This document shows, piece by piece, positions 27,698-35,749 of a stretch of 36,516 bases of DNA. The translations under genes were made by a program, and so were the position numbers. The DNA is from a virus. Where the stretch lies: positions 1-36,516 of IMG/VR virus record IMGVR_UViG_3300040856_002461. One strand, written 5' to 3'. A model generated the notes under the pieces. It had not been told where the DNA came from. It did not search any database and saw only the letters and a program-made list of their open reading frames with translations. How positions within the stretch are numbered: the stretch's first letter is position 1; every line of letters begins with the position of its first letter.

Positions 27698-27925
27698 CTA
27701 CAATACGATCTTCAACGTGCCGCTGTCGTTCCACACGGAACCAGACTCAAGACCAGTGGACGAGGTCGGCAGGTTCGTCAGGACTAACGTTGTATTACGG
27801 CCTTCTCCCGGGTTTTGAACCAGTTCAAGGGCCAAAGAGAAGGCACGGGTAAGCTCAGCCATGTATTCCGGACTGTACTCACGTGGGGGGACTGGAAATA
27901 ATGGAATAGGTACACTACGCGACAT
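27698..27925 (-). CDS. Small virion-operon protein (75 aa)
   Basis: MSRSVPIPLFPVPPREYSPEYMAELTRAFSLALELVQNP begins with a proline-rich strand and a helix, then TTLVLTNLPTSSTGLESGSVWNDSGTLKIVL. The N-terminal pattern (P-x-FP-x2-P-x-EY-x5-EL-x-R-F) and the G-x2-WND-x2-LKIV ending are familiar from short phage structural genes placed after a tail protein. Role unknown. It overlaps the upstream stop by one base. Confidence 0.7.
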   Translation of the reverse strand: MSRSVPIPLFPVPPREYSPEYMAELTRAFSLALELVQNPGEGRNTTLVLTNLPTSSTGLESGSVWNDSGTLKIVL

Positions 27926-29781
27926 TACCTACCTCCATCCTGCTGGATGTCCACTCGTGGCGAACCAAGACGCCACTGAACATTCCTCATGTCTGACGCA
28001 ATGCGAACACGCATTTGCCGACCACGAAGCCTGAAGTACAGCTGGGAAGAACGGTCGTTCGTGGCCGAAGGGTTGTACGTGTAACCCTGTGTCTCAACCT
28101 TGTGGTACACACCGTCATTGTAGTTTCGAACACTGAGAGTAAAGTCCACCGCAGGGGTGGGCTCAGTGGACTGCATGAAAGACACATCCGGGAGTAGGCG
28201 GCGGACAAACATAAGTCGGTCGCCCTCGCCAATGTCGAACGGGCTTGACTCAATATACGAGCTGATGGGCACAGAAGGCTCCTGACTTCCGTCGTTCAAG
28301 CCAAACTCGTGCTGGTAAAGGTAGCCGTCTGAGGATGCAGAGATAGGGTAGTCAAAGACACTTTGATCTATCCATGCGGTTCTGGACAGAGATCCATAGG
28401 CCCAAGTGTTTTCTTCGTAGTTGTAAAGGACGTACTTATCCACAGACCCGCCGCCAGACACAGACGGATAAAACCACCACACCTCAGAGTGTGTGGAGTT
28501 GATGCCAGCGAATGCCTTAACAGACTGAGTCCTATTCAGGTCATCGAACACGTAGTCCCGCACAGAACAGGGGATCTTCTGGACTGCACCAGTGTAGGCG
28601 TAGAAACCGTTTTCGCCCATCCAGAACACCCTGTCCTGAACCGCAACTGCAACTCGGGGAGAAAGGATGGACGTGTTTTCGCTTATGGCCACCGCGCCAA
28701 ACGTAAAAGGCGGTCCAAGGAACTGTATGTTGTACAGCGTTGTGTCTGTGAATACCAAGATCTGCTGTCTGGTTTCTACAGCGCACACAATCTCGGACCC
28801 AGAGCCAAGGCGCAACTCGCCTGCTGTGTTCGTGGCGCGGCTTTCCCAATCCGTAAGGCTTTCTTGGCTTGAAAAACGGATGATCATGGGGTCCTGAACG
28901 CCGGGGTTACTTTCCGGATCGCAGCCAAAGGCGAGTATGTGCCGGTCCCGGTCAGACACCAAGATCTGCTTTGCTATCGTCGGGGTGCTGTTGGCACCTG
29001 AAAGGCTTGAAAGCTCTACGGCCCTCGCGTTCAAACCCGCACTGAAATCCCAATAGTAGATCCCTTGATCCCGGATATTTATAAGAAGGTCTTCGCCGTA
29101 GTTGTCCTGTGTCCATGTTCTGGGGCCACCGAGCAAAAGGGCAGAGGTCGAAGCTTCACCCCAGCCACCTTCACCCCACCCACCTGCACCCCACCCAGTG
29201 CCGTTCGCGAAGGTGTCGTAACCAACATTGATCTGATAAACGGCATCCACTGCGCCGCCGTTGCCGGTATCAGACGCATTGGCTTCAACAGACAGTGTGA
29301 TCTGGTACTGCGAGTCAGACAGCACTGCTGTGATCTGGTGCTCCGCGTTCAAAATATCTGCTGTAACAACCCCGCCAAGGCCTGTAGCCCCCACAAAGGT
29401 CACGAAGTCGTTTATGTTGGCCCCGTGCGAAGCGTGCGTGACGGTTAGAAGAGCACTTCCACTAGACGCTGAGAAAGGACCGCTAAGGCTGACCGTCGCA
29501 CGGATTGGGGTGATGTCATAAAACGCTCCCCCATAATTGACATAGTACTTCAGATGGGTGCCCACACCCAAGTAGGAATCCCCAACCAAGGAGTTCCACG
29601 GAAACAGAGAGCGACAGGTTCCCAGAAACGTGCTGCTGGAATACCTAGCCCATCCACCAATCTGTTCCGGAAACCCTTTTGTAAAACGAACCTTGTCACA
29701 GTCGAACCATCCCCCCTCATTGCTGTAGGGGGTGATTTCCCTGTTAATACCGGGGCGAAACTGGAGCTTTTGCAGAGGCAT
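27925..29781 (-). CDS. Beta-rich tail or stabilisation protein (618 aa)
   Basis: It starts PLQKLQFRPGINREITPYSNEGGWFDCDKVRFTKGFPEQIGGW, a conserved opening of a phage virion family in which the N terminus binds the tail tube or portal. The rest is strand-rich with regular turns (TWTQDNYGEDLLINI, ILVSDRDRHILAFGCDPESNPGVQDPMIIRFSSQE, AVAVQDRVFWMGENGFYAY), consistent with a propeller-like body, as in P22 gp10-type stabilisation proteins or tail tubular proteins. The exact equivalent is inference. ATG 29781; 57 bases separate it from the heme-oxygenase-like gene. Confidence 0.7.
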   Translation of the reverse strand: MPLQKLQFRPGINREITPYSNEGGWFDCDKVRFTKGFPEQIGGWARYSSSTFLGTCRSLFPWNSLVGDSYLGVGTHLKYYVNYGGAFYDITPIRATVSLSGPFSASSGSALLTVTHASHGANINDFVTFVGATGLGGVVTADILNAEHQITAVLSDSQYQITLSVEANASDTGNGGAVDAVYQINVGYDTFANGTGWGAGGWGEGGWGEASTSALLLGGPRTWTQDNYGEDLLINIRDQGIYYWDFSAGLNARAVELSSLSGANSTPTIAKQILVSDRDRHILAFGCDPESNPGVQDPMIIRFSSQESLTDWESRATNTAGELRLGSGSEIVCAVETRQQILVFTDTTLYNIQFLGPPFTFGAVAISENTSILSPRVAVAVQDRVFWMGENGFYAYTGAVQKIPCSVRDYVFDDLNRTQSVKAFAGINSTHSEVWWFYPSVSGGGSVDKYVLYNYEENTWAYGSLSRTAWIDQSVFDYPISASSDGYLYQHEFGLNDGSQEPSVPISSYIESSPFDIGEGDRLMFVRRLLPDVSFMQSTEPTPAVDFTLSVRNYNDGVYHKVETQGYTYNPSATNDRSSQLYFRLRGRQMRVRIASDMRNVQWRLGSPRVDIQQDGGR

Positions 29782-29838: not shown

Positions 29839-30330
29839 TCACCGAAAGGCTATCTCATCCATGACAGTTAAGAGGCAACCAAAGGTCCGACGCGCAAGTT
29901 CGGTGTCTTCTTCGCTGCTACGCGCCTCGGTCAGCCACCCTCTAACCGCCTTCCAGTCTTTGTAAACCGTATGCGCAGACGGCAGTCCGCGTTTTGCCAA
30001 CGTCGGAGCCATAACCCGCCCCCCGGAACAGTGCGCCCCGTGCAGGACATATGCGGCCCCCACAACTCGCTGCCCCACAAGCTGCTGTGCAAACTGAAGT
30101 GCAGCGGCGCTGGGCCGTGGCGTAGGAAGAGCGCGAAGGTCCGCGCGCAACGCATCGTCTCGGCAAAAGTCGGCGGGCAGATCAAGGTCCACAACGCTGT
30201 GCAGCGCCTTGAAAGACCAGAGCCAATCTGCCCACTCCTGCTCCGTCACATTGCCTTGCGACATGCGAGCGCCGAAAGGGTGCTGTTCGCATGCGTGGTG
30301 CAAGTCCTTTGTGGCGTCGTAAAGGGACAT
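29839..30330 (-). CDS. Heme-oxygenase-like protein (163 aa)
   Basis: The N-terminal part (LYDATKDLHHACEQHPFGARMSQGNVTEQEW) aligns by eye with the start of heme oxygenases (L-x2-AT-x3-H-x3-E-x3-F, then G-x-VT). This puts His11 at the position of the proximal heme ligand, His25 in human HO-1. Residues 91-104, GAAYVLHGAHCSGG, resemble the distal-helix motif G-x2-YVLEGS-x-LGG, but with one extra residue and Ser/Leu changes. The protein is all-helical and shorter than typical bacterial enzymes (about 190-220). The reaction would be heme to biliverdin, iron and CO; activity is uncertain because of the changed distal motif. ATG 30330 follows the upstream TAA by two bases; a TTG at 30342 is the longer choice. 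Confidence 0.68.
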   Translation of the reverse strand: MSLYDATKDLHHACEQHPFGARMSQGNVTEQEWADWLWSFKALHSVVDLDLPADFCRDDALRADLRALPTPRPSAAALQFAQQLVGQRVVGAAYVLHGAHCSGGRVMAPTLAKRGLPSAHTVYKDWKAVRGWLTEARSSEEDTELARRTFGCLLTVMDEIAFR

Positions 30331-30332
30331 GA

Positions 30333-30836
30333 TTATGGCCAATACACACTTAGATCATAGTCCACCGGAATAGGGTCCATCGCCTCAAGCACATCGGAAG
30401 CTGCGCGGATCGCCGCGATCTGGTTCCAGATAGCTTCACCCGCCGCCCATGCAGCCGCCTCTTCCGGTGTCCAGTTGGCCTCACCCGTCTTGGCAAGTTG
30501 CGCTGCCTGAGCCGTCAGATTGCGCTGCTTCCACTCAGGGCAGATCGCAATGATGCGGCGAAATGCTTCTGCTTTGACCATTTCAGGCGTTGCCGGAATG
30601 TCTGCCACTGTCCAGCCGAGGGTCCAGACGCCATCGACAAGTGTTGGCAGGTCATTGCGTGTGGCGCGTTGCCATTTATCAGTGGCTGGTCGATCCAGAA
30701 CTGTCACCGGATAGACATTATATTCCGCCAAGCGTTCATCAGGTATGTTCTTGGGGAAAGAGATGTTCGGGTTATCACGACGCAGTTGCCCGATTGTGTA
30801 ATTCTCGGGGTGGCCGTTTGTTACTCTCACGTACAT
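30333..30836 (-). CDS. Tail-fibre assembly-like protein (167 aa)
   Basis: The N-terminal part reads YTIGQLRRDNPNISFPKNIPDERLAEYNVYPV, the usual opening of phage fibre assembly or fibre-tip accessory proteins (a strand, then SFP-x2-IPDE-x-LA-x-YNVYPV). A helix-rich C-terminal half follows (EMVKAEAFRRIIAICPEWKQRNLTAQAAQLAKTGEANWTPEE). Such proteins act as chaperones for trimeric fibres. It lies directly after the beta-propeller protein gene, its ATG abutting that stop, with AGGAG upstream. Confidence 0.75.
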   Translation of the reverse strand: MYVRVTNGHPENYTIGQLRRDNPNISFPKNIPDERLAEYNVYPVTVLDRPATDKWQRATRNDLPTLVDGVWTLGWTVADIPATPEMVKAEAFRRIIAICPEWKQRNLTAQAAQLAKTGEANWTPEEAAAWAAGEAIWNQIAAIRAASDVLEAMDPIPVDYDLSVYWP

Positions 30837-32948
30837 CTACAAGTCTCCTATGCTGATCCTGCCGGACCACGAAAGCGTAATCAGTTTCGTAGAATTTGCA
30901 AAGACGCTCGGTGCAATACCAAGAGACCCGGTATCAATAACGGACTGATCAACCAGACCTGTCACCCGGTTCCACTTCGCTGCTCCGAAATCTTGAGCGC
31001 CCAGTGTTGTGAACGTCTCACCGTCTGGGTGCAGGAGGAATGTCCTAGCCACCAGTGACGCATTGAACGCTGAGAGACCGTAGGAGTTGGCCCCAGACGC
31101 GTATACGAAGGCTGGTGCGCTGGGCGTAGACACGTCAACTCTAAGCATCGCGTACTCGTCGCCGTGCGGTATTGTGGTGAATACCTCGTCTCCGGTCTTG
31201 GTTATACAGTAGGCGACCGGAATTTGTGAGCCGGACAGGCTAGCCCCGGTATAAAGGGATGCAATTGGTGACAACGCACTTCCCTGAGTGCGGCCCGCCA
31301 GATTGTAGACCTCGAAGTACATGCTACCAGAACCACTTCCGTTCGAGCCGGAAACGGTGTACAGATAGTCTCCATCAAGCAGGGCCGTGCTGGACTCGGA
31401 CGTGTTTGTAGTGAGGTGCGAGGGGCTGGCGGGGTTCGTGACGTCAACCTCCCAAGAATACTTATACCCGAAGGCAAACACAGAGTTTCCGTACTTCAGC
31501 ACTTGGTCGGCGTAGAGTTGCGTGGACGGAAAATCGACGCTCCCTGCAATCGTCGGAGTGCTACCGCTGATGTCGAACACGTACAGTCTGGTGGTCGTAC
31601 TAGTAGGTGCAAGCGTCGTGTAGAGGTAGTTCCCGTCGATCACTGGTTTCCCGACGGAATAGTTCAAAACCCCCTCGCTCACAGTTAGATCGCCCGTCCG
31701 ACCCAAGAGTGCGGGGGATGCTTTGTTCGTGACGTCATACTTCGCCAAGGTCAGCAGGCCGTTCGTAGCGTCTAGCTCGAAAGCGTAGAGTGTGTTTCCG
31801 TCCGCGCTTACAGCTATCTCTTCGATCCTGATGCTGGCGTACCCGACGCTCCCCACCAGCGACAAGCTACTCAGATCAGACGCGTCAAAAATCTTCGTCG
31901 TGTTGTACTCGGGCATGAAGATGTACTGGCCCCTGACGTCCGCCGGAGTATTGACGAAAGTACCCTTCCATTCGCCTTCTGGTGTAGCTGGAACAATCCC
32001 CTCAGACGATCCAGTAAGTATGTCGAACACCTCGTAAGACGAGTCATATCTATTCGTCACATACAATTTTTCGTTCGTGGCGTAGGAGTGTGGCGTGTAA
32101 GCGAAAGTCACCGAATTGATGTGCGTGATGCTGCCCGGTGTAGACACGTCGAAGACATGAGCGGTGGTATTGGAGGACATGTAGAGTTTGCCGTCCCGAA
32201 CGTGCTGGGAAAATTTCACGAGGCCGGGGTAACCCGAAAATATATGTCTGTCGGTCTCTGCCCCAGTGTTCAGATTGATTACGGCAGTTACAAAATCTCC
32301 AGTCGAAGAGTCACGATATGTGAGGTAGGCATAGGTTCCCGTACTCTCTATCGCGATCCCTTGGTCGTAGTTCATAGTGCTGACAGGCGCACTCTTTGAC
32401 TCTTCTTGCTGCACTCTACCGCTATTTAGACGGAAGCGGCGCGCATAAATCCGATCATCAACGTGGTTGAAATACGCCACCCACTCGCCTGCGGAGGCGA
32501 CGTTATTCCTGACGTTGCTGAGCCCGTTTCCCAGATTTAAGAGGTACTGATCCTCCTCGTCGATTACCTGCTCCGGGGTGTTGACCACAAGATACTGTCT
32601 ATTGTCGTCGCTGTCATAGATCGCCGCTGCGACAGCTTCTTCCCCCGTTGTCAGAACGAAAGCAGCCATCTCCGCATTGAGAAAGGTGATAACAGAACCA
32701 TCGACCTGATCGAGCACAGCGACCTTCGCACCCGGCGAACCTGTGGAGACGTCAATAGCCGAAACCCGGTAGTGGTGAACATTCAGGTCGTCGTTCCGGT
32801 AAACAGGCTCAGTGAAATAAACGTACTTTTCCCCGACAGCCCAGCGTTTGTAATAAGCAGGAGGGACAAGGGAAAGGGCAAACGACTGACTGCCCCCACC
32901 GCCACCACCAACGGTCCCGCCCGCACCTTGAGCCTTGTGCCACAGCAT
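30837..32948 (-). CDS. Beta-propeller virion protein (703 aa)
   Basis: ATG 32948 overlaps the fibre stop by one base (TGATG); the open frame extends further upstream but inside the fibre gene. After a Gly-rich start (GGTVGGGGGGSQSFALSLVPPAYYKRW) the sequence is a run of about 45-residue strand-rich units with recurring LYVFDIS, VFDVSTPGSI, YDVTNKASPALLG and WEVDVTNPASPSHL segments, typical of LVIVD-type propeller blades. It probably decorates the distal tail and may bind a host surface molecule. Confidence 0.72.
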   Translation of the reverse strand: MLWHKAQGAGGTVGGGGGGSQSFALSLVPPAYYKRWAVGEKYVYFTEPVYRNDDLNVHHYRVSAIDVSTGSPGAKVAVLDQVDGSVITFLNAEMAAFVLTTGEEAVAAAIYDSDDNRQYLVVNTPEQVIDEEDQYLLNLGNGLSNVRNNVASAGEWVAYFNHVDDRIYARRFRLNSGRVQQEESKSAPVSTMNYDQGIAIESTGTYAYLTYRDSSTGDFVTAVINLNTGAETDRHIFSGYPGLVKFSQHVRDGKLYMSSNTTAHVFDVSTPGSITHINSVTFAYTPHSYATNEKLYVTNRYDSSYEVFDILTGSSEGIVPATPEGEWKGTFVNTPADVRGQYIFMPEYNTTKIFDASDLSSLSLVGSVGYASIRIEEIAVSADGNTLYAFELDATNGLLTLAKYDVTNKASPALLGRTGDLTVSEGVLNYSVGKPVIDGNYLYTTLAPTSTTTRLYVFDISGSTPTIAGSVDFPSTQLYADQVLKYGNSVFAFGYKYSWEVDVTNPASPSHLTTNTSESSTALLDGDYLYTVSGSNGSGSGSMYFEVYNLAGRTQGSALSPIASLYTGASLSGSQIPVAYCITKTGDEVFTTIPHGDEYAMLRVDVSTPSAPAFVYASGANSYGLSAFNASLVARTFLLHPDGETFTTLGAQDFGAAKWNRVTGLVDQSVIDTGSLGIAPSVFANSTKLITLSWSGRISIGDL

Positions 32949-35749
32949 CAGGAACCGTCCCCGACCAGCGCGCCGTAGAGCGTTGTGCCGACCTTCCAGA
33001 TCGCAATGACCGTGTAGCCAGTAGTCGCAAGCGTGGGTGCTACGCCACCGTTGTTGACCCAAGTCATTGTGGGCCATGTGATCGTGTAGGCTGTACCATC
33101 GTCAACCATCAAGGTGATCGCCTCGCCAGCGGACAGGCTGTCAGTTGGCGTCGAATTGCCTGTCAGCGTCCACGTCTGGATGGAGCCATTTGAGGGGTCC
33201 AGAGCGGGGGTGGTGCCGCTGACCGTGTAGACATCCTCAAGAATGGTGCCCGTGATGGCAGGATCGACTAGGGTCTTGTTCGTCAACGTCTGAGTGCCCG
33301 TCAGGGTGACATCCCCGGCCCCGGCAGTGATCCAGTCGTAGTCTGTTCCTGTCCAAGACAGCACCTGACCGGAAGTTGCAGCGGAGGTGTTGAGGTGAGC
33401 GTCCACCGCAGCGTCGTCATAACCGCTTGACACCGCGATCCAGTCGTAGTCTGTTCCTGTCCACGACAGCACCTGACCGGAAGTTGCAGCGGAGGTGTTG
33501 AGATGCGCGTCCACCAAAGGATCGACATTTGCCGCATCCGTGACATCAGCCCCCGCCTCAATTCCAGACAACTTACTTGCCTCGGCTGTGGTGTAACCTT
33601 GGTAACCTGCGGAATACGTAATCGCCAAAGTGCCAGAGGCCGTAATAGGCGAACCTGAAACCGAAAAGCCCGTAGGCACTGTGGCGGCAACAGATGTGAC
33701 GGTGCCACCCCCGTCTGTAATCCAGTCGTAATCACTGCCTGTCCACGACAGCACCTGACCGGAAGTTGCAGCGGAGGTGTTGAGATGCGCATCTACAGCG
33801 GCGTCGTCGTAAAGCGTCGGTTTGTTTATCAGGTCCGTATAAGACCCACTGGTCGCGACAGCAGCGAGCGTAGGTGTGTCGCTCAGGTCCGTATAAGACC
33901 CACTGGTCGCGACCGTCGCCAGTGACGATGTCAGAGTGTAGTTGTTCTCAAGGTACGTCTTGACCGCATACTGTGTCGGGGCCGTGTTGCCATCTGCAAC
34001 CCCCGTGGAGGCGTTGAGGTCTGTGTTGTTACTGACTTCCAGCAACTGCACACCAACTGATGTTTGACCGCCGTCTCTGGAGAACGGGCCAATCGCATTC
34101 AAGCCGGAGATATTGAAGCTGTCCGTGTTGATCGTCACCTCACCAGTGGTGCCGTTCACAGAGAACTGCTGGCCAACGCGGAAATTACCCAGCTGGTCGG
34201 TGCTTGAGTAGAACACCCGCCCACCGTTTAGCTCAACAATCTCATTGGCTGGAATGGGTTCACCGCCGTTAAACGGAAGCGCCAGATAGTTGGTCCCAGC
34301 ACCGACATATTCCATCGTGTGGCCAGAGGTGGAAACCTGACTGCGTTGGTAAAAAGAGACCGTCTCGCCACCAGATAGCGCCCCGCTCAATGTTGGGTAA
34401 AAGGTGACCGTATAGCCGCCCGTTGTCGGAGCTGCGCCGGTAATGGTGTACGTGTTGCCGTCAACAACAAGCACCTGACCTTGAGCGGGACGGTTTGAAC
34501 TGCCGATAGTGTTCGTCGTAAGAGCGGTAACAACGAAGTTGTTCTCATCCGCAGACTGCGCAGACGCAGTGCCGGTATAGATGGCCGTTGGAGACTTCCC
34601 GTCCGCCACAATACCCTGCGTACCAAAGTCCGTGGTCGAATTGGACAGGTTGACCTGACCGCCGTTCGCTGCCTTGACGTGAAAGCTGCAGAAAGTTCCA
34701 AAGAACGAAACCAACTGTGCGTACGCATTGTTCGTCACCAAGCAACCCGGACCGTCGAGGTTGATCTGTGTGTAGCTGTCAACGACCATTGAGCGAATGG
34801 GTGAGTTAGACGCGCACTCGTCGCCATCCACCAGCATACCGCCGCCGGTGGTGCCGTCAGATGTTGATCCAGCAACACCAGAGTCATCCTGAGCGGTGTA
34901 GCTTGTGCAGTTTTGGATATATGGAGACTTGAATATGTATGCCCCTGCGTCTGCCGCACCAATGCTGGTATTGTCCGCAGAAGCGTTAAACCGCACGGCC
35001 CACGCCCCAGCCTGATGGCCTGCGAATGTCATGCCGGTCAAATACGCACCAGAGTCGACCAAGAACATGCTGTTGGTGTTCGTCGCCAAGGTAGGCTCAA
35101 TCTGCGTCACGCGGAGACCGGCACCAATTATGCTCACGTCACGTGGAACAACCATCGGGCAGACTTCAGAGAACGTTCCGGGTCCGACACTCACCACCCC
35201 ACCTTGCGCAACCAAGGAAAGGGCGTGCTTTAGTGTGCGAACAGAGGTGTACGGCTGGAAGCCGTCGTTCGTGTCATCACCATCCACAGACACCCAAATC
35301 AGGCTGCTGCTATTCAGTCCAAACTGCAAGGTAGAGGAGTCTGTGACATTGACGACAGCGGCCCCTGCGCCGCCGCCATTGGCGTACACGATGGCACTCT
35401 TGCCTGCCGAAAGCGTTACGTTGCCACCAGAGCCCTGTGTCAGAACCACTGTCTGGTCAGTGGTGTTTTTGACAACGAAGGTCTTCTGCTGGTCAGAAGG
35501 GCTAATCGTGACAGTGTTCGTCCCACTGGGCGACCCTGCAAAAACCAAAACAGCGTAATGACCGTCTGACAGACTGCCGTCCACCGTGTTCAAAGTGTGG
35601 GTCGTTCCAGATAGCGTGATCGTTCCCACACCATTGGTCATACGGTCGATGATCTGAATGTTGGTGTTGGTTGTATCCCCCCAGAGGCCAGCCTGTTCCC
35701 CTGTGGTGATCAGCTCAAGACCGCTGTTCGACGTGTATGTGCTCGCCAT
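32948..35749 (-). CDS. Tail fibre protein (933 aa)
   Basis: The start STYTSNSGLELITTGEQAGLWGDTTNTNIQIID is the usual N terminus of marine phage tail fibres, which anchors the fibre to the tail. A pectate-lyase-like stretch follows (WVSVDGDDTNDGFQPYTSVRTLKHAL, VSVGPGTFSEVCPMVVPRDVSIIGAG), suggesting a right-handed beta helix. The C-terminal third has direct repeats DAHLNTSAATSGQVLSW and SGSYTDLSDTPTL. It would determine host attachment. ATG 35749 lies 11 bases after the upstream stop. Confidence 0.85.
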   Translation of the reverse strand: MASTYTSNSGLELITTGEQAGLWGDTTNTNIQIIDRMTNGVGTITLSGTTHTLNTVDGSLSDGHYAVLVFAGSPSGTNTVTISPSDQQKTFVVKNTTDQTVVLTQGSGGNVTLSAGKSAIVYANGGGAGAAVVNVTDSSTLQFGLNSSSLIWVSVDGDDTNDGFQPYTSVRTLKHALSLVAQGGVVSVGPGTFSEVCPMVVPRDVSIIGAGLRVTQIEPTLATNTNSMFLVDSGAYLTGMTFAGHQAGAWAVRFNASADNTSIGAADAGAYIFKSPYIQNCTSYTAQDDSGVAGSTSDGTTGGGMLVDGDECASNSPIRSMVVDSYTQINLDGPGCLVTNNAYAQLVSFFGTFCSFHVKAANGGQVNLSNSTTDFGTQGIVADGKSPTAIYTGTASAQSADENNFVVTALTTNTIGSSNRPAQGQVLVVDGNTYTITGAAPTTGGYTVTFYPTLSGALSGGETVSFYQRSQVSTSGHTMEYVGAGTNYLALPFNGGEPIPANEIVELNGGRVFYSSTDQLGNFRVGQQFSVNGTTGEVTINTDSFNISGLNAIGPFSRDGGQTSVGVQLLEVSNNTDLNASTGVADGNTAPTQYAVKTYLENNYTLTSSLATVATSGSYTDLSDTPTLAAVATSGSYTDLINKPTLYDDAAVDAHLNTSAATSGQVLSWTGSDYDWITDGGGTVTSVAATVPTGFSVSGSPITASGTLAITYSAGYQGYTTAEASKLSGIEAGADVTDAANVDPLVDAHLNTSAATSGQVLSWTGTDYDWIAVSSGYDDAAVDAHLNTSAATSGQVLSWTGTDYDWITAGAGDVTLTGTQTLTNKTLVDPAITGTILEDVYTVSGTTPALDPSNGSIQTWTLTGNSTPTDSLSAGEAITLMVDDGTAYTITWPTMTWVNNGGVAPTLATTGYTVIAIWKVGTTLYGALVGDGS
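33330..33913. repeat. Direct repeats in the tail fibre gene
   Basis: Three near-identical copies of about 70-90 bases (starting near 33330, 33436 and 33720) encode the VDAHLNTSAATSGQVLSWTG module. Two identical 31-base copies at 33829-33859 and 33883-33913 encode VATSGSYTDL. Such repeats allow the fibre to change length by recombination. Confidence 0.8.

Follow-up and report, generated by a model that had tools for sequence, protein, structure and literature searches.

A divergent heme oxygenase-like protein family encoded mostly beside tail-fibre and lysis genes of bacterial viruses

The window analyzed here, the whole 36,516-base stretch of DNA in an IMG/VR virus record, comes from a marine-type bacterial virus. 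Its genes for polA, helicases and a primase lie to one side of the structural genes. Among the structural genes, on the same minus strand as the surrounding tail genes, lies a gene for a heme oxygenase (HO)-like protein of 163 aa, designated here as P0001 (29839..30330). The annotation is based on a sub-threshold Pfam match, family alignments, an AlphaFold2 (AF2) model and PDB matches. As proposed in a preliminary description of this DNA, the reading frame is complete, running from an ATG at 30330 to a TGA stop codon at 29839-29841; a TTG could serve as an alternative start and would add 4 aa. The G+C content is 60.6% in P0001 and 57.9% in the window.

Directly upstream is a gene for a 167 aa protein (30333..30836, minus strand), which within the window shows only a weak match, to phrog_4998 of unknown function (E 2.4e-5). 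A fibre-related role is suggested because the same slot in relatives matches tail fibre or fibre assembly families. This gene stops 2 nt ahead of the P0001 start codon (TAA-TC-ATG), which is consistent with translational coupling. Further upstream on the same strand are a putative tail fibre/adhesin-like protein of 746 aa (30837..33077; weak LVIVD/kelch-like matches), whose true start is probably further in, and a tail fibre protein of 933 aa (32948..35749; PHROG tail fibre matches down to 3e-53). On the other side, a virion protein of the "stabilization protein" type (27925..29781, minus strand; phrog_3287, E 1e-72; 41% identity to a protein of phage DSL-LC04) begins at 29781, 57 nt past the P0001 stop codon, and with this distance no coupling is visible. 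Of the coupling to both neighbours suggested earlier, the 2-nt gap to the fibre-assembly-like slot upstream is consistent with it, and none is visible on the side of the virion protein gene.

The similarity to HO is weak when P0001 is used alone. Single-sequence searches revealed no match in NCBIfam, PHROGs, PDB (phmmer) or the INPHARED phages, and the Pfam HO profile PF01126 scored 16.9 bits (E 0.006), under its gathering score of 23 bits. Relatives were found from viral contigs, 25 with P0001 as the query and 121 with the alignment (profile) as the query, and 68 distinct family sequences with 36-98% identity to P0001 were analyzed. PF01126 matched 12 of 20 family members (best E 0.0059). In the kind of profile search that had been proposed as a check, all 17 PDB sequences listed for the family profile were HOs (best E 0.007), and the profile-profile comparison with 14 bacterial HOs reached a probability of 98% with P 2.9e-13. 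In pairwise BLASTP, the HO of pelagiphage Mosig (E 3.5e-6) and that of cyanophage P-SSM2 (E 1.8e-5) were recognized.

The structure predicted by AF2 from the 68-sequence family is an all-helical HO fold with pLDDT 96 and pTM 0.91. The best 50 PDB chains in Foldseek were all HOs. VIA-align superimposed 162 of the 163 residues on rat HO-1 with bound heme (Z 19.0, 2.2 Å), and this fit of the model is far above the level of accidental matching between helical bundles. No diiron oxidase or TenA-type fold was seen among the Foldseek and VIA-align matches listed. Structure prediction thus returned neither a different fold nor an unrelated virion family. The possibility of a spurious reading frame was excluded by 22 residues shared without exception by the 68 distinct relatives, and membership in an unrelated virion family was rejected, as no PHROG match (best E 0.3) and no match from isolate phages or plasmids was obtained.

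The predicted heme pocket was mapped with the HMMER alignment to human HO-1 and with the end points of the structural superposition, which agree. The invariant residues are T7, H11, H12, C14, E15, H17, G20, W36, H44, D48, D64, Y94, V95, A99, H100, G103, G104, H120, R137, F150, L154 and M157. The N-terminal histidine motif recognized in the preliminary description is present as T-x3-H-x3-E: the proximal helix T7-x3-H11-H12-x-C14-E15 (30286..30312, minus strand) is invariant in the 68 sequences, and T7, H11 and E15 correspond to T21, the heme ligand H25 and E29 of HO-1. H44-x3-D48 (30187..30201, minus strand), also invariant, occupies the positions of Y58 and E62 in the distal hydrogen-bond network. 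In the alignment to HO-1, the distal helix Y94-V-L-x-G-A99-H100-x-x-G103-G104 (30019..30051, minus strand) corresponds to Y134, G139, D140, G143 and G144. R137 (29920..29922, minus strand) is the counterpart of the heme propionate arginine R183 and is invariant in all 68 sequences. From the end points of the rat HO-1 match, the last helix from F150 to M157 (29860..29883, minus strand) provides the pocket-lining positions: F150, L153 and M157 stand for F207, N210 and F214.

Conservation was then compared at 20 heme-contact positions known from HO-1 structures. Fifteen of the 20 reach at least 90% conservation, compared with 39 of 163 positions in total (hypergeometric p 3e-7), and 12 of the 20 are invariant (p 1e-7), among them the proximal His and Glu, the Tyr and Arg at the propionates, and the Gly-Gly of the distal helix. 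A basic residue (K/R8) is kept in the family at the position of K22. This concentration of conservation on heme-contact positions indicates that selection is focused on the heme pocket. Together with the profile and fold similarity, it strongly supports the claim that the protein is HO-like. Some contacts differ from HO-1: the propionate contacts K18 and K179 are absent from the phage family, and R136 and N210 are replaced by Leu in P0001 (L96 and L153).

The distal motif GAHCSGG named in the preliminary description is also present in P0001, and A99-H100-x-x-G103-G104 is invariant in the family, with Asp140 of HO-1 replaced by His. This change had been taken as a possible sign against catalysis. 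That interpretation is not supported, since active plant HO1 has the same Ala-His; the Ala149-His150 pair of soybean HO-1 builds a different hydrogen-bond network, and Arg23, Tyr144 and Arg188 bind the propionates there (PMC7948506). K/R8, Y94 and R137 seem to be the counterparts of these three residues.

H12, H17 and H120, together with C14, are invariant in the family and have no counterpart in HO-1; a second metal site or a contact with a redox partner is possible. The bacterial relative L090 lacks H12, C14 and H44, and another divergent relative, L091, lacks H17 and H100, indicating that the wider clade does not need all of the extra His and Cys residues.

The HO gene is usually positioned behind tail-fibre genes and ahead of tail-tip or lysis genes. 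In 19 of 58 loci, its start codon and the stop codon of the upstream gene share a 4-nt overlap (ATGA). Among 55 upstream neighbours, a tail fibre family is the PHROG seen most often (15 members), followed by further fibre families; among 53 downstream neighbours, tail assembly proteins (10) and endolysins are the commonest. The family spans siphovirus-like, podovirus-like and T4-like contigs. A GTA-like prophage of Aliiroseovarius (L086) shows the order DUF2460-type, fibre, fibre, fibre-assembly-like, HO, DUF2163-type, NlpC/P60 and gp15-type host-specificity genes, where the family names beyond PHROG matches are our own reading of the sequences. The T4-like group shows another arrangement, with the HO gene beside tRNA-like sequences and no fibre gene; probable tRNA genes directly downstream of the HO gene were recognized by eye in one member (L066:6485-6720).

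The isolates DSL-LC04 and CRP-901 are related to the window through the downstream virion protein, and their equivalent slot is filled by holin, peptidase, lysozyme or chitinase genes with no HO annotated. The HO gene therefore looks like an optional passenger among late genes. The fibre cassette of DSL-LC04 (L125, 908-1528) includes a 2OG-Fe(II) oxygenase, another iron-dependent enzyme beside fibres. Collagen-like GPTGPTG fibres and a glycosyltransferase gene are found upstream of the HO gene in five loci (L003, L011, L016, L053 and L055; phrog_13126 in L053). Iron-loaded HxH fibres were considered as a reason for the fibre linkage and rejected, as just 3 of 55 upstream proteins have the HxH motif.

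No relative was found from isolate phages (INPHARED, tblastn with family members) or from the plasmids searched. Only three relatives were found from bacterial genome contigs: Aliiroseovarius sp. S1123, a Rhodobacteraceae MAG and Roseovarius sp. TE539. Screening of 296 genomes from the same family as Aliiroseovarius and 385 from the same class revealed two divergent relatives, L090 and L091, plus two marginal matches. All isolate-linked relatives come from Rhodobacteraceae/Roseobacteraceae genomes, and these groups include aerobic anoxygenic phototrophs. In the open-licence literature, no description of this phage HO family was found.

In trees with 13-14 bacterial HOs, the phage family separates from these as a clade (98-100% bootstrap), although with long branches and an uncertain sister group. 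It is likewise a clade of its own (97/91 support), again with long branches, when the P-SSM2 and Mosig HOs are included, which form another clade. The bacterial L090 falls within the phage clade or next to it. Its gene is located directly before a bacteriophytochrome fragment on the same strand (PAS_2 E 9e-16), and the fragment ends near a DDE/IS transposase gene. The locus (L119:8871-10650; G229, C1 ~29.4-31.2 kb) possibly represents host capture of a phage HO gene as bphO, or the reverse. This bphO-bphP-like pair is an independent, single-case support for biliverdin production by this branch.

Partner genes were surveyed in 30 phage records including the window, some of which may be fragments. 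With this scope, bilin reductase (PF05996; PcyA/PcyX/PebS), 2Fe-2S ferredoxin (Fer2) and the phytochrome PAS_2 domain were each absent from all 30. With no ferredoxin gene travelling with the HO gene, electrons would have to come from the host. One downstream neighbour labelled "ferredoxin" by PHROG was examined as an electron partner and rejected, as it turned out to be an endolysin. This protein (phrog_5115; L016:6847-7371) is endolysin-like and lacks the CX4CX2C motif, and the label is probably an error.

Compared with HO-1 and HmuO (PF01126), the phage proteins share the fold, the proximal His/Glu, the propionate Tyr/Arg and the distal Gly-Gly, while they show ~19% identity and are 40-50 residues shorter. 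Gly-Asp is replaced by Ala-His, Tyr58 by His, and Arg136 and Asn210 by Leu, and extra invariant His residues are present. Plant HO1 (Arabidopsis HY1 and soybean GmHO-1) shares Ala-His in place of Gly139-Asp140, within an A-H-x-x-G-G-R pattern (PMC7948506). Its structural match to the phage model is weaker (Z 13) than that of HO-1, and the phage family keeps the equivalent of E29, whose place is taken by a backbone contact in plant HO (PMC7948506). BphO shares the YVL-x-G...GG signature and the T-x3-H-x3-[ED] start, but the phage family has one residue more between Tyr94 and Gly-Gly and belongs to a separate clade; adjacency to a bacteriophytochrome is seen only for the bacterial L090.

HOs are also encoded by other phages, such as HO1 of cyanophage P-SSM2 and the vHemO proteins of pelagiphages and freshwater phages (Mosig, CB_2). 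The P-SSM2 and Mosig proteins retain GDLSGG, in contrast to Ala-His here, and show significant pairwise similarity to P0001. Known phage HO genes occur with a bilin reductase gene and sometimes alaS (PMC11480375), whereas the family described here has no bilin reductase in the 30 records and is usually located by tail fibres. For a freshwater phage whose bacterial host is presumably not photosynthetic, the HO was shown to be active, and the authors regard it as still enigmatic what purpose the HO and bilin reductase genes serve in such phages (PMC11480375). Two proteins of uncultured Caudovirales in BFVD, A0A6J5RJ96 and A0A6J5KN38, annotated as "heme oxygenase(-like)", resemble the phage model in predicted fold (TM 0.85-0.87) with 17-18% identity. 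Until now, phage HOs have been accounted for by a supply of bilin pigments to photosynthetic hosts. As phage HOs including an active one are already described (PMC11480375), what is new here is a phage-specific branch with no pigment partner genes in the 30 records.

P0001 is probably (about 0.7) a true, if divergent, heme oxygenase that originated in phages and that would act late and open host heme with host electrons. Catalysis is likely. Points against this reading are the lowered activity of human HO-1 with D140H (PMC7948506), the Leu residues at the R136 and N210 positions, the loss of the K18 and K179 contacts, the extra invariant His and Cys residues, the sub-threshold Pfam score and the missing ferredoxin gene. 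Heme would lie between the proximal helix, where H11 ligates the iron and E15 holds this His, and the distal helix kinked at G103-G104, and its propionates would be held by K/R8, Y94 and R137. The distal network may consist of A99-H100 and H44-D48, the latter at the Y58-E62 positions of HO-1, in place of Gly-Asp/Tyr-Glu, in the way that plant HO1 uses Ala-His. Host ferredoxin or flavodoxin systems would supply electrons, and the products of heme opening would be biliverdin, CO and ferrous iron. Co-transcription of the gene with late tail-fibre and lysis genes is probable, and its position among them suggests action late in infection. The most likely benefit would be iron freed from host heme, while biliverdin may be a host signal. 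Our first choice for the role is iron release late in infection, followed by biliverdin/CO signalling and then by a virion role.

That the enzyme serves a biliverdin or CO signal to the host, for example to host bacteriophytochromes or respiration, instead of supplying iron, is considered unlikely. The bphO-bphP-like pair of the bacterial relative and the linked hosts, Rhodobacteraceae/Roseobacteraceae, are in its favour, but the pair is a single case with bphP truncated close to a transposase gene, and no phytochrome is present in the 30 phage records. The same bacterial pairing argues against a protein that binds heme without degrading it, at the fibre tip or baseplate, in the spirit of the "Ferrojan Horse" use of heme/TonB-type receptors. 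The conserved heme pocket and the usual slot behind fibre genes and ahead of tail-tip or lysis genes, in many loci with the 4-nt overlap upstream, would fit such a virion or assembly protein. So would the distal His, as the artificial change D140H lowers the activity of human HO-1 (PMC7948506), but the plant enzymes with Ala-His are active. P0001 is a bare HO domain with no extension for docking to the tail, and the T4-like relatives have the gene by tRNA-like sequences, away from fibres. This reading is quite unlikely, and the new structural role suggested in the preliminary description has gained no positive evidence.

A non-heme metalloenzyme of the HO-like diiron oxidase type, with a fibre residue or a sugar or other small molecule as its substrate, is very improbable. 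The invariant H11, E15, H44, D48 and H100 would be its metal ligands, several His, Asp and Glu residues are conserved beyond the HO set, and glycosyltransferase and sulfotransferase genes occur in the same cassettes, and the 2OG-Fe(II) oxygenase gene occurs in isolate DSL-LC04. Against this, the heme-specific positions are kept (the propionate Arg and Tyr, the basic residue 8 and the Gly-Gly kink), and the PDB matches listed, by sequence and by fold, are all HOs. A broader proposal is highly doubtful: a phage-evolved HO class with a His-based distal network, used for tail-fibre or virion assembly or for receptor use involving heme or heme iron instead of pigment, from which a bacterium recruited a gene as bphO. 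With a clade of stand-alone HOs found mostly in tail-fibre and lysis cassettes, iron release, signalling and virion roles become directly testable.

With its distal His in place of Asp, the family provides a natural example of this design outside plants. A further natural variant of the distal network is seen in a divergent relative (L120:9480-10004; G552), which has GGATLMGG with Thr in place of His100 and adjoins fibre-like genes and a PIN/HTH pair.
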